Assembly: GCA_900318085.1 (NCBI GenBank)
Contig: ONJF01000002.1
Span: forward strand, 186,001-250,000
Source: an uncultured Bacteroidales bacterium
Lineage (GTDB): Bacteria; Bacteroidota; Bacteroidia; Bacteroidales; F082
Direction of reading: 5' to 3'
DNA length: 64,000 nucleotides
The notes under the pieces are model-generated. The model had not been told where the DNA came from and did no database searches. It saw only the letters and a list, made by a program, of their open reading frames with translations. Made by a program: the position numbers and the translations under genes. This document shows, one piece after another, positions 199 through 5,748 of this stretch (the stretch's first letter is position 1; the number at the start of each line of letters is the position of its first letter).

Positions 199-774
199 TA
201 TTTTCTTCTTCAGTATTGCAATTTCCAGGTTGGTCTGTTCCTGCTGCTCATTGATGTCATTTTGGTCATGCAGGATTTCCTCGATATAGGCGTTCAACTG
301 ATCGACTTTATGGGAAAGTTGCTCCATTTTTAGGTCGACTGAAAGCATTGTTGCAATTGCCTTTCGCATTGCAATAAAAGCCCTTGTCACCATCACGCTC
401 ATTTGTATGGCACAAGGGCTATGTAATACAGAGGCAAGCATCACAGCACCATGTTCGGTGAAAACATAAGGAGGTGCTGACTTGGGGCGTTTTTGTGGCG
501 ATGTCATCACATTTTGTGACGACAGATTGCTAATCCTCTCAATTTCAATCCATTCCTCTTTTGATAATTTAAACATGAAATCCTCAGGGAATCGGTCTGC
601 ATTACGTTTGACTGCTTGGTTGAGAGCTCGTGTCTCTACTCCGTAAATACTGGCGAGATCGCGATCAAGCATTACCTTTTGCCCTCGAATTTCATAGATT
701 ACATTCTTGATGTTGTCGATGTTCGCTTTTTGCATATCAAATTGAATGCTTTTGATTGGTTTGGTTGTTTCCAT
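1..774 (-). CDS. ORF6N domain protein (KilA-N-like DNA-binding), no stop inside the window
   Basis: An ATG at 774-772 opens a minus-strand frame reading [19 protein letters not shown]. The ORF6N core follows: [20 protein letters not shown], then [20 protein letters not shown] and [16 protein letters not shown] heptad-like tail ([19 protein letters not shown]) fits a coiled coil. ORF6N proteins are phage/plasmid-derived DNA-binding proteins common in Bacteroidota; their role is usually unknown. Recognisable homology stops at about residue 190 (near position 200). No stop codon occurs in frame from 774 down to position 1, so the frame runs antisense through the end of ruvB and off the left edge. 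The natural stop is therefore unseen or has been lost. The call is firm for residues 1-190 and open for the C terminus. Confidence 0.75.
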
Positions 775-2215: not shown

Positions 2216-2609
2216 AATATGGTTTGAGGGCGAGTGGATCTATGGCCTTGGCGATGATGGAAAGACCTATCGCCAGTCGCTACTTTGGTATAAAGATTTG
2301 TTGAAGGCTTCTGATTCGGAACGTGAAGAATATGAAATCAGCACGATCGGCATCCATTGGCGAAATTTGGATGTGGATGTCAGTTTTGAGAGTTTTACTT
2401 ACGATGAGGCGGAACCTTCTGAGTTGCAACGCTTTTTCTTGACCCATCCGGAAATCAATGTTGGACAGTTTGCATTGAAGGCAGGTATTAATGCTGGATT
2501 GCTTCGTAACTATATCAATGGCTTTAAAAAGCCTTCCCAAGAACGAGAGCAACAGATTTTGCAACAAATCCATCAATTAGGTCAAGAATTTGCGGCTGTT
2601 ACATTCTAA
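2202..2609 (+). CDS. DUF2442-like protein with a C-terminal helix-turn-helix
   Basis: The ATG at 2202 gives a 135-residue protein beginning MKINKIWFEGEWIYGLGDDG. The first ~80 residues have DUF2442 character (QSLLWYKDLLKASDSERE, then IHWRNLDVDVSFESF). The rest (RFFLTHPEINVGQFALKAGI, then NAGLLRNYINGFKKPS) reads like a Cro/C1-type helix-turn-helix with recognition helix NAGLLRNYINGFK. A frame extension to 2130 exists but would overlap the DUF4160 gene by 86 bp and lacks homology, so 2202 is preferred. A DNA-binding partner beside DUF4160 would suit an autoregulating antitoxin; this is inference. Confidence 0.75.
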   Translation: MKINKIWFEGEWIYGLGDDGKTYRQSLLWYKDLLKASDSEREEYEISTIGIHWRNLDVDVSFESFTYDEAEPSELQRFFLTHPEINVGQFALKAGINAGLLRNYINGFKKPSQEREQQILQQIHQLGQEFAAVTF

Positions 2610-2616
2610 AAAACTG

Positions 2617-2624
2617 TATTTTTG
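2617..2624 (+). promoter_or_regulatory. Bacteroidota -7 element upstream of leuS
   Basis: TATTTTTG lies 37 bp before the leuS ATG at 2661 and 8 bp after the preceding stop. Confidence 0.4.
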
Positions 2625-2660
2625 CAGTTTCTTTCAAAAACCGCAAAAACACCTCGTTGT

Positions 2661-5144
2661 ATGGACTATAACTTTACCGAAATCGAGAAGAAGTGGCAGC
2701 AATACTGGCGCGACAACAAAATCTATAAGGTTGATATTGACCACAGTAAGCCGAAATTCTATGTCTTGGATATGTTTCCGTATCCTTCGGGAGCTGGCTT
2801 GCACGTGGGACATCCGCTGGGCTACATTGCCTCGGATATTTATGCAAGATATAAAAGGCTGAAAGGCTTCAACGTGCTGCATCCGATGGGTTACGACGCC
2901 TACGGTCTGCCCGCTGAGCAATATGCCATCCAAACGGGTACCCATCCAGCCGTGACGACCGAGAAGAACATCAACCGCTACCGCGAGCAGATGGACAAGA
3001 TCGGTTTCTGCTACGACTGGGACCGTGAGGTGCGCACTTGCGAGCCAGGCTACTACAAGTGGACGCAATGGACATTCCTTCAGTTGTTTAACTCGTTCTA
3101 CTGCAACGGCTGTCAGAAGGCACAACCTATCAGCAAGCTGATTGCTCGTTTCGAGGAGAAAGGTACCGAAGGCCTCAATGTGGCCGAGAGCAAGCCGTTG
3201 AGCTTCACCGCCGCCGAGTGGAAGGCAATGAGCGAGAAGCAGCAACAAGAGGTACTGATGAACTACCGTCTTGCCTATCAAGCTGAGGCCATGGTGAATT
3301 GGTGCCCTGGCTTGGGTACGGTGCTCGCCAACGACGAGGTGGCCGACGGTCTCTCGGTTCGTGGCGGCTTCCCCGTGGAGCGCAAGTCGATGAAGCAATG
3401 GCAGCTCCGTATCACGGCTTATGCCGACCGCCTGCTTCAAGGTCTCGAGACCGTGGACTGGAGCGAATCGGTGAAGGACTTGCAGCGCAACTGGATTGGC
3501 AAATCCATGGGTGCTTCCGTTATCTTCAAGGTGGACGGTAAAGATATCGATTTAGAGGTGTTTACGACGCGTGCGGACACTTTGTTTGGCACGACCTTTA
3601 TGGTGCTGGCTCCTGAGCATGAGTTGGTAAAGGAAATCACCACGCCTGAGCAACGCGCTGAGGTGGAGGAGTATATCACCCGCACCAAGAACCGCAGCGA
3701 ACGCGAACGTATGGCTGAGGTCCGCAAGGTGAGCGGTGCCTTCACGGGTGCCTACGGCATCAACCCCATCACGGGTGCCAAACTGCCCATCTGGATTGCC
3801 GACTATGTATTGATGGGTTACGGTACGGGCGCCATCATGGCTGTGCCTGCCCACGACAGTCGCGACTTCGCCTTTGCCAGCCATTTCAACCTGCCCATCA
3901 TCCAAGTGGTGAAGAAACCTGGCACCGAGGCCACCGATCCTTCCACATGGGAGGAGAGCTTCGACGCCAAGGACGGCGAGCTGGTCAACTCGGGCTTCCT
4001 CAACGGCCTGACTGTGAAGAAAGCCATTGAGCGTATGATTGAAGAACTGGAGAAACTCGGTGTCGGCACGGGCAAGACCAACTACCGCCTGCGCGATGCC
4101 ATCTTCAGCCGCCAGCGTTATTGGGGCGAGCCATTCCCGATCTATTATAAGGACGGCATGCCTTACGCCATGGACGAGTCGAAACTTCCGCTTGAGTTGC
4201 CTGCCATCAGCGAATATAAGCCTACCGAGACGGGTGAGCCGCCTTTGGCTCGCGCCAAGAACTGGGTCACCGAGGAAGGCTATCCCATCGAGACCAACAC
4301 CATGCCTGGTTTTGCTGGTTCCAGCGGTTATTATTTCCGCTACGAAGACCCGCACAACGACAAGGAATACTTCAGCCGCGAAGCCAACGACTATTGGCAG
4401 AATGTCGACCTCTATATCGGTGGCGCTGAACATGCCACTGGCCACTTGATCTACAGCCGCTTCTGGTGCAAGTTCTTGTTTGATATTGGTTTGTCATGCA
4501 AAGACGAACCTTTCCAAAGGATGATTAACCAGGGTATGATTCAAGGCCGTTCGAGCTTCGCCTATCGTGCCAACATGGAGAAACTCTGCGAATATGGCGT
4601 GTGGCAACTCATCAAGGACAACAAACTCGGAGTGAAGTTCGAGAAAGACTTTAAGGACGGTCGCCGTCGCTTTGACTTCTTTTGCCCCGAGAAAGGCATC
4701 CTTATCGAGATTAACCGCATGGGCAACCTCGAAAAGGTGGTTGAGCCTTGGCAGGACTATGCCGATGAGAAAGGCTACAAGCTCTTGCTTGTCCCGATTA
4801 TCGATGTCGTTAACGACTTCAAGGAAGGCTCTCATGTCGTCGAACAGAAGATTAGGGATTTGGTTGCTGGCATGGATGTCCCCGTCTTCATTGAAGGCGA
4901 GGCCTATCATGGTGGTCCGTTGTTCGTCTCCAAGAACCTCGAAGGTCGCGAGCAGTTCAGCGACCCGATTCATGTGGACATCAACATGGTGCGCAACGAC
5001 ATCCTCGATGTGGAAGCGTTCCGCCAGTGGCGCGATGACCTGAAAGATGCCCAGTTCATCTTCGAGAAGGACAAGGATGGCAACGATATCTTTGTCTGTG
5101 GCAACGAGATCGAGAAGATGTCGAAACACGCTCCGTCTCTATGA
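2661..5144 (+). CDS. leuS: Leucyl-tRNA synthetase, N-terminal part of a broken gene, with a nuclease-like insertion
   Basis: Class I synthetase that charges tRNA-Leu. The HIGH-type motif is [16 protein letters not shown] near residues 40-55. The CP1 editing domain shows [19 protein letters not shown] and [14 protein letters not shown], and the body continues to [17 protein letters not shown]. After GRSSFAYR, about 115 extra residues (roughly 636-753) interrupt the family sequence, which resumes at [12 protein letters not shown] and PIHVDINMV. The extra block reads like a DUF559/Vsr-type PD-(D/E)XK nuclease: [59 protein letters not shown]. The frame ends abnormally: NEIEKMSK is followed by HAPSL and a stop where KMSKS and the next ~17 residues should be. 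The remainder continues in another frame from 5146. The start at 2661 fits the family N terminus ([16 protein letters not shown]). This is either a true pseudogenising deletion or an assembly error. Confidence 0.9.
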
Positions 5145-5145
5145 A

Positions 5146-5748
5146 ATGTTCCTCGGCCCCTTGGAGCAATCCAAGCCTTGGGATACGCAGGGTATCGAAG
5201 GCACTTTCCGCTTTGTGCGTAAGTTCTGGAGGCTGTTCCACAACGAGAACAACGAGTTCTGCGTCAGCGACGAACCTGCCACCGCGCCCGAGTTGAAGAG
5301 CCTGCACAAGCTCATCAAGAAGGAAGAGGACGGCATCGAGAGCATCTCGTTCAACACGGTCGTTTCGGCCTTCATGATTTGCGTCAACGAGCTGGCCGAC
5401 ATGAAGTGCAACAAGCGTGAGATCCTTGAGCCTCTGACGGTGATGATTTCGCCTTACGCACCGCATATCGCCGAGGAGTTGTGGCACCTGCTGGGTCATG
5501 AGACCTCAGTGGTGAACGCCGCATTCCCCGCTTACGACGAGAGCAAGACTGTGGAGAACAGCTTCAACTATCCCATCAGCTTCAACGGTAAGATGCGCTT
5601 CAATATGGAGCTGCCCGTCACGATGAATGCTGACGAGGTACAGGCCGCTGTGCTTGCCGCCCCTGAGTCCGCCAAATGGCTCGAAGGCAAGCAGGTGCGC
5701 AAGGTGATTTATGTGCCTAAGAAGATCGTCAATATCGTTGTGGGGTAA
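5146..5748 (+). CDS. leuS: Leucyl-tRNA synthetase, C-terminal part of the broken gene
   Basis: About 200 codons in a frame shifted relative to the upstream leuS part. They encode the anticodon-binding and C-terminal domains: MFLGPLEQSKPWDTQGIEG, FRFVRKFWRLFHNENNEF, EPLTVMISPYAPHIAEELWH and a terminal VRKVIYVPKKIVNIVVG. Upstream in this frame TLRLYEM is present, so homology resumes at 5128, before the ATG at 5146. The block between KMSK and TLRLY, about 18 residues in the family (SK-FNVVNPDD-YGAD), is missing. Separate translation from 5146 would give a fragment without catalytic function by itself. I read it as the 3' half of one gene split by a deletion of about 53 bp. Confidence 0.88.
   Translation: MFLGPLEQSKPWDTQGIEGTFRFVRKFWRLFHNENNEFCVSDEPATAPELKSLHKLIKKEEDGIESISFNTVVSAFMICVNELADMKCNKREILEPLTVMISPYAPHIAEELWHLLGHETSVVNAAFPAYDESKTVENSFNYPISFNGKMRFNMELPVTMNADEVQAAVLAAPESAKWLEGKQVRKVIYVPKKIVNIVVG

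Follow-up and report, generated by a model that had tools for sequence, protein, structure and literature searches.

The leucyl-tRNA synthetase (LeuRS) gene leuS of the window, by which we mean the whole stretch of 64,000 nucleotides of Bacteroidales DNA that was analysed, carries in frame an inserted domain that is a DUF559/Vsr-type PD-(D/E)XK nuclease in fold, and we read this insert, at a probability of roughly 0.46, as a homing-like selfish nuclease that is old and decaying in the lineage of the window. In such a history a DUF559/Vsr-type domain would have integrated into leuS, keeping its frame, at the base of the leucine-specific domain, would remain in the mature synthetase, and would show selfish behaviour of the homing type without a surrounding intron or intein. 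The ancestral copy, its E...D...ExK site still intact, would have spread between leuS alleles through local recombination at one site, a spread that cutting of leuS may have driven; later the third catalytic residue would have been lost, perhaps followed by deletion that left scars, and the window copy with its E-I-N would stand at a degenerate stage. The points that were computed are the nuclease fold, the in-frame place, the single clade and site, the invariant acids, the spread of N, K and R at the third catalytic position, the conflict in genealogy (for one group of carriers) and the presence or absence of related copies within a genus. Coordinates are collected in Table 1.

Table 1. Position of leuS, its insert and the residues discussed in the text, numbered along the window.
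Feature	Position	Strand	Basis or remark
leuS (leucyl-tRNA synthetase), listed ORF start to KMSK	2622..5126	+	ORF; Pfam LeuRS editing and tRNA-synt_1 domains; alignment with relatives
Inserted DUF559/Vsr-type PD-(D/E)XK domain, 116 residues, in frame with LeuRS	4569..4916	+	Missing in many relatives; Pfam DUF559; model pLDDT 91.9; Foldseek 3hrl and 3r3p
Helix A Glu, insert residue 8	4590..4592	+	Putative; matched by eye through spacing, to within one residue, with E73 as put forward for Caulobacter VsrA; E in 51/51 aligned inserts (L126 left out)
Catalytic-type Asp, insert residue 36, FDF	4674..4676	+	D in 52/52
E-I-N: ExK-motif Glu (residue 47) and replaced third residue Asn (residue 49)	4707..4715	+	E in 52/52
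Leucine-specific domain of LeuRS, adjoins insert on 3' side	4917..5111	+	Alignment with relatives
EKMSK	5112..5126	+	53 bp of relative L075 absent directly after, junction about 5125/5126; blastn to L075
Remaining leuS, anticodon-binding and C-terminal part, other frame	5127..5748	+	ORF 5047-5748; Pfam Anticodon_1

The initial annotation had placed a block of about 115 residues inside LeuRS at 4570-4920, and comparison with relatives confirms an interruption of 116 residues at 4569-4916. The insert sits between ...QGRSSFAYR and PLFVSKN at the base of the leucine-specific domain, a place that we call site 1, where eight of 80 named LeuRS loci (L137, L140, L144, L149 and L151-L154) have just five residues. 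An intact insert is found in 51 of these 80 loci, in every case in LeuRS and at this site, and one further locus (L125) holds a masked partial copy; the named loci were ranked by similarity to a query that holds the insert, which biases them towards carriers, and most of them are metagenome-assembled genomes. Among 35 genomes of the same genus, a match spanning the insert is found in 23, a LeuRS without the insert in five and no match in seven. Alignment of related LeuRS sequences, a check proposed along with the annotation, gives a patchy picture with the insert present in some relatives and missing in others. An ordinary LeuRS subdomain is ruled out, as the block is missing in many relatives.

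The listed LeuRS reading frame extends from 2622 to 5144 on the + strand, with the true start probably near 2661 (MDYNF) as judged by comparison with relatives. In a blastn comparison with L075, leuS of the window lacks 53 bp immediately after KMSK, which shifts the frame, and because of this gap the remainder of the gene is read in a different frame. A genome search finds a single LeuRS in the window's genome, and strain mixture or an assembly fault seems to us a likelier explanation for the gap than an essential gene being dead, though a real deletion is possible. With such a gap and frameshift close by, and with a relative (L076) that breaks off at the same point, the insert itself could be suspected of being an assembly or binning artefact; its recurrence in 51 intact named loci and many further genomes refutes this for the insert and makes an artefact extremely improbable.

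That the block is a DUF559/Vsr-type nuclease, as initially proposed, is borne out by Pfam, by a profile match to PDB 3hrl, by Foldseek and by profile-profile comparison. Taken alone, the window insert matches Pfam DUF559 (PF04480) at E 0.0098 with 16.2 bits, which lies below the gathering cut-off of 20.6, and 37 of 39 aligned inserts match the family at E up to 1 (best 4e-7). The profile of these 39 inserts retrieves 3hrl, an endonuclease-like protein, from the PDB at E 1.7e-6, whereas the remaining six of the chains listed reach E 0.28 at best. An AlphaFold2 model of the insert (39-row alignment; pLDDT 91.9, pTM 0.86) has 3hrl as its first Foldseek match (E 2.5e-4, TMt 0.72) and its sole match at E up to 0.001; the second is 3r3p, the catalytic domain of the homing endonuclease I-Bth0305I (E 3.7e-3, TMq 0.55-0.56), and ranks 4, 5 and 7-10 are taken by mitoribosomal proteins of Toxoplasma and Tetrahymena (E 0.04-0.16). 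When a profile of 51 site-1 inserts is compared with one of 87 other DUF559 domains, the probability is 98.6 and E is 7.6e-16 (for a single target) across 96 columns. Foldseek, profile and profile-profile results thus agree on the fold of the solved DUF559 member 3hrl, and the structure prediction that had been recommended as a check returned a nuclease fold and not an ordinary LeuRS subdomain. The block is neither common to all Bacteroidales LeuRS nor devoid of similarity to nucleases, the two properties that the initial annotation had itself named as speaking against its proposal. A full-length LeuRS model (mean pLDDT 70.7, pTM 0.45, with ten-residue blocks across the insert at 79-92) is too poor for placing the insert relative to tRNA.

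Two other identities were considered. A defence-system protein was dropped, PADLOC being empty for the window copy and for L115; L123 gave a weak AbiEi match (E 0.00054). PHROGs returned weak matches for the window copy, the best of which carries the name homing endonuclease (E 0.0059). An intein or other spliced element, which an in-frame nuclease-like domain within an essential enzyme could bring to mind, was rejected and retains next to no likelihood at all: the nuclease core fills nearly the whole insert, leaving no space for a splicing domain, and no intein family is among the Pfam scan matches of the window and the inserts.

Insert residues 8 (E), 36 (D) and 47 (E), the last of which we take to be the Glu of the classic PD-(D/E)XK motif, are invariant in 51 site-1 inserts (L126 left out). 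The 39-row alignment, which includes L126 and in which identity falls to 23%, has five invariant columns, and three of them are these acids; if its 112 columns are exchangeable, the chance of these three falling among the five is about 4e-5. The initial annotation had pointed out E-I-N in place of the usual E-x-K or E-x-D, which is correct, and N at the third position is limited to the insert clade that holds the window, where it occurs in 31 of 35 rows, the other four (L090, L099, L106 and L107) having K. Over all 52 inserts residue 49 is N in 31, K in 17 (L114-L118 among them) and R in four, these last belonging to some deep lineages (L111, L112, L119 and L126); without L126 (n=51) the counts are N 31, K 17 and R 3. 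The PD-(D/E)XK triad D...ExK is therefore complete in 17 of the 52 site-1 inserts and incomplete in the window, which has D...E-x-N. The ancestral form was probably E...D...ExK with a later change of K to N, a decay that we count in favour of the selfish reading; the presence of R and not K in some deep lineages counts against it. Judged from its residues, catalysis by the window copy is doubtful, and its ability to cut has presumably been lost.

For Caulobacter VsrA, a DUF559 protein, E73, D102, D115, H119 and D124 are the proposed active-site residues (PMC12907096); judged by their spacing, E73, D102, D115 and H119 would correspond, give or take one residue, to insert residues 8, 36, 49 and 53. 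The E-D-D-H site of the VsrA type is not present in the inserts: E and D are kept in 51/51, the Asp of ExD is replaced by N, K or R, and none of the 51 site-1 inserts has H at residue 53.

Conservation of this kind bears on the idea of a passive old insertion, in which the product of a single ancient and harmless event would since have been passed down and recombined along with leuS in the usual way, the domain now being neither selfish nor useful. One clade, one site, apparent repeated loss and the lack of flanking repeats all suit such a history, but passive baggage would hardly keep three active-site-type acids among five invariant columns, and we regard it as unlikely.

Insert profile matches (E up to 1e-15) are found in 20 of 295 genomes drawn from the order and in 14 of 183 genera; location in LeuRS is judged for these 20 from frame length (1032-1201 aa in 18, 844 aa in the window and 704 aa in one). 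In a class sample of 395 genomes, matches at E below 1e-38 come from the window's own genome and from four genomes of a single family, with the next match at 1.5e-12. On a quick tree of 89 LeuRS bodies with the insert cut out, presence of the insert needs 11 changes, and starred branches force at least five; both large trees were made by the quick method, whose stars deserve less trust where branches are long. The insert is missing from seven close relatives (L128-L130, L029, L030, L032 and L033), which have a LeuRS of ordinary length and retain 18 residues that by eye resemble both insert ends. These remnants are best read as scars of insert loss, an ancestral half-site being a possible alternative.

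Other material also occupies this site. L127 and L133 have 25-26 residues there, starting VNVQKYKEYF or VSVQKFKDYF, which are possibly remnants of the insert's first helix. LeuRS of other Bacteroidota (L131, L132, L136, L138, L141, L142, L145, L148 and L150) have inserts of unlike sequence, 60-118 residues long, at the same site, and since differing inserts occupy it the base of the leucine-specific domain seems insertion-tolerant. Additionally, a record titled Methanobrevibacter sp. (L089) has a Bacteroidales-type LeuRS with insert, for which reason its contig looks mis-binned.

Nine carriers together with the seven scarred relatives form one branch of the body tree (SH-aLRT 90, unstarred), and their genealogy conflicts with that of the insert. 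The insert rejects a clade of the nine carriers (AU p 0.00026, or p 0.013 when rows with long branches are left out), as it does a clade of the seven that remain without L109 and L110 (p 0.013), and the nine-carrier clade is also rejected by the 120 residues upstream of the insert (p 0.0057). The group is recovered in body windows 150-270 (eight of nine present, unstarred), 280-400 (eight, starred) and 860-980 (nine, starred), a recovery that is partly circular as the group was defined from the whole body. The conflict reflects exchange, in some members of the family, of a stretch that surrounds the insert, and homing with co-conversion or ordinary recombination would both give such a pattern. 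In the nine carriers the same site, patchy presence, a genealogy unlike that of the host gene and a flank that conflicts along with the insert would fit homing. However, ordinary leuS recombination accounts for the local exchange equally well. A second group, made up of the 28 carriers that share a body clade with the window, withstands the test against the insert (p 0.178), and for the nine-carrier group window 400-520 (p 0.38) and the leucine-specific domain (p 0.40) decide neither way. Raised synonymous divergence as proof of exchange was set aside, as the leucine-specific domain shows it as well.

The main rival to a selfish history is retention for a tRNA- or nucleic-acid-binding role. 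Here the domain would be kept as a LeuRS aid, e.g. a nucleic-acid-binding appendage that touches tRNA or adjusts editing from beside the leucine-specific domain, with catalysis abandoned in the rumen clade; we consider this possible though less probable. Median dN/dS is 0.099 for the insert, 0.043 for the upstream LeuRS body and 0.104 for the leucine-specific domain (243 usable pairs of 1081 with enough sites), and the low value of the insert together with E8, D36 and E47, invariant at identities down to 23%, also fits a useful host function. The leucine-specific domain is reported to lie close to the D-loop base of tRNA (PMC6588880), and mitoribosomal proteins are among the Foldseek matches, though at E 0.04-0.16. 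Against retention as an aid stand the near relatives that lack the insert and keep a LeuRS of ordinary length, the patchy presence (20/295 genomes), and the occurrence of the same family inside unrelated enzymes.

This last point comes from a survey of DUF559, which occurs in 124 of the 295 genomes drawn from the order, with many matches in frame within long reading frames. Among the matches listed, 84 frames of at least 300 aa hold such a copy, 24 of 25 from the order sample (L072, 341 aa, was set aside as of stand-alone type) and 60 of 67 further ones from the class sample; these copies in Bacteroidia are at L035, L036, L051-L071, L073 and L165-L224. Host identities were obtained by clustering and by NCBIfam on 19 representatives. 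Among the matches listed (n=84), the hosts are LeuRS (26), MetH (9), IleRS/ValRS-like (7), acetate-CoA ligase AcsA (6), HsdR (4), RecG (4), HisF (3), the IcmF/methylmalonyl-CoA-mutase group (3), TsaB (2), RecJ (2), a methyltransferase-like pair, an unnamed pair, and 14 single hosts that include TsaD, an RluA-type pseudouridine synthase and HsdM; the host at L060 is presumably ValRS. The LeuRS copies among the matches listed use two further places, at residues of about 320-385 (17 rows) and 565-690 (9 rows). Of the 87 other DUF559 domains (the 84 in-frame copies and three stand-alone ones), 86 have an intact E-D-D-H site, and host labels are intermixed on a quick DUF559 tree of few columns, with 42 changes for 16 groups.

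Signs of mobility accompany these copies. In 52 of 83 in-frame copies (one more was dropped for short or masked flanks) the inverted repeats on either side are better than in any of 100 shuffles, and 36 of the 83 lie above the 95th percentile of mismatched flank pairs, the lower count probably being due to repeats that are alike across loci. Within one genus of seven genomes, RecJ is filled in three (G484, G344 and G423) and empty in four (G454, G514 and G387 by sequence, G541 by match coordinates at a contig end), and as to TsaD, G541 is filled, G484 keeps a repeat-like remnant, and the remaining five are without a nuclease (G454 as judged from match coordinates only). Two LeuRS genes have two nuclease-like domains each. 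That of L119 has a repeat-flanked DUF559 at 2525-3121, in the first of the other places, and a site-1 insert at 4085-4423, and the 93% identical L123 is without the repeat-flanked upstream copy; that of L147 has a DUF559 at the upstream place (1952-2524) and a divergent EIK-bearing insert at site 1 (3515-3853). Also present in the window's own genome is a DUF559 gene that stands alone (L074 1302-1769; G000:C82:18412-18735) between imperfect inverted repeats of about 44 bp, and a 141-bp flank query from this locus gives 14 matches in the genome, self included.

The insert of the window probably derives from, or is of common origin with, these in-frame DUF559 nucleases of Bacteroidota housekeeping proteins, which are often repeat-flanked. 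Descent from a mobile copy is hypothetical, since flanking inverted repeats beat shuffles in none of the 52 site-1 inserts, the window insert having none, and since a long branch divides site-1 inserts from the mobile DUF559 copies on a quick tree. The site-1 rows entered in this tree, 18 of the 52, form one clade separate from the 87 other DUF559 domains (SH-aLRT 100; quick tree, few columns). A homing-like selfish nuclease is nevertheless favoured by the one site, the patchy presence, the local exchange in the nine-carrier group, the decay of the third residue, the scars and the mobile relatives. Among the functional guesses offered by the initial annotation, a selfish element is best supported, mainly via analogy with those mobile relatives, and a tRNA-acting domain is less supported.

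A broader proposal, which we advance tentatively and at somewhat less than even odds, is that Bacteroidota harbour a class of selfish elements that is intein-like but never splices. Each would consist of a Vsr-fold nuclease gene lying in frame in an essential enzyme, often between translated palindromic inverted repeats, with LeuRS (three sites), IleRS, MetH, AcsA, RecG, RecJ, TsaD, TsaB and HisF as hosts, and its imprecise deletion would kill the host gene. The window insert would be an ancient member whose repeats are lost and which, having spread through leuS by homing, is now in decay. In the literature searched, no title or abstract opening is on a nuclease inside LeuRS or on in-frame repeat-flanked DUF559 in housekeeping proteins, and as subscription journals were mostly outside this search such absence is unproven. 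An essential synthetase tolerates an additional nuclease domain beside its tRNA-contacting leucine-specific domain, which points to a general hiding route for selfish nuclease genes, in frame within essential proteins and with no splicing. If this is true, the annotation of fused 'DUF559' domains in housekeeping proteins would change, and filled, empty and remnant-bearing alleles among close relatives provide ready natural experiments.

The insert can be set against several known systems. Inteins are also in frame, in essential enzymes and nuclease-linked; the insert differs in having no room for a splicing domain and is predicted to remain in the protein. I-Bth0305I (PDB 3r3p), the second-best fold match, is a selfish nuclease with a Vsr-like core, presumably of the EDxHD family, and is reportedly linked to a group I intron, whereas the insert shows no sign of intron or intein. 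Rickettsia palindromic elements (RPEs) to our knowledge encode no nuclease, unlike the in-frame copies of Bacteroidota, and the window insert is without repeats. RPEs are described as palindromic repeats in frame within reading frames of likely functional proteins (PMC3733652). A further comparison is with DUF559 itself, as seen in PDB 3hrl and Caulobacter VsrA; fold and family are already known. Fold and element order are common with the insert, and the helix A Glu and the Asp appear, by spacing, at positions proposed for VsrA (PMC12907096). The insert differs from VsrA in having N, K or R and no H at the positions that would match D115 and H119 (51/51), and in being lodged inside LeuRS where VsrA stands alone.
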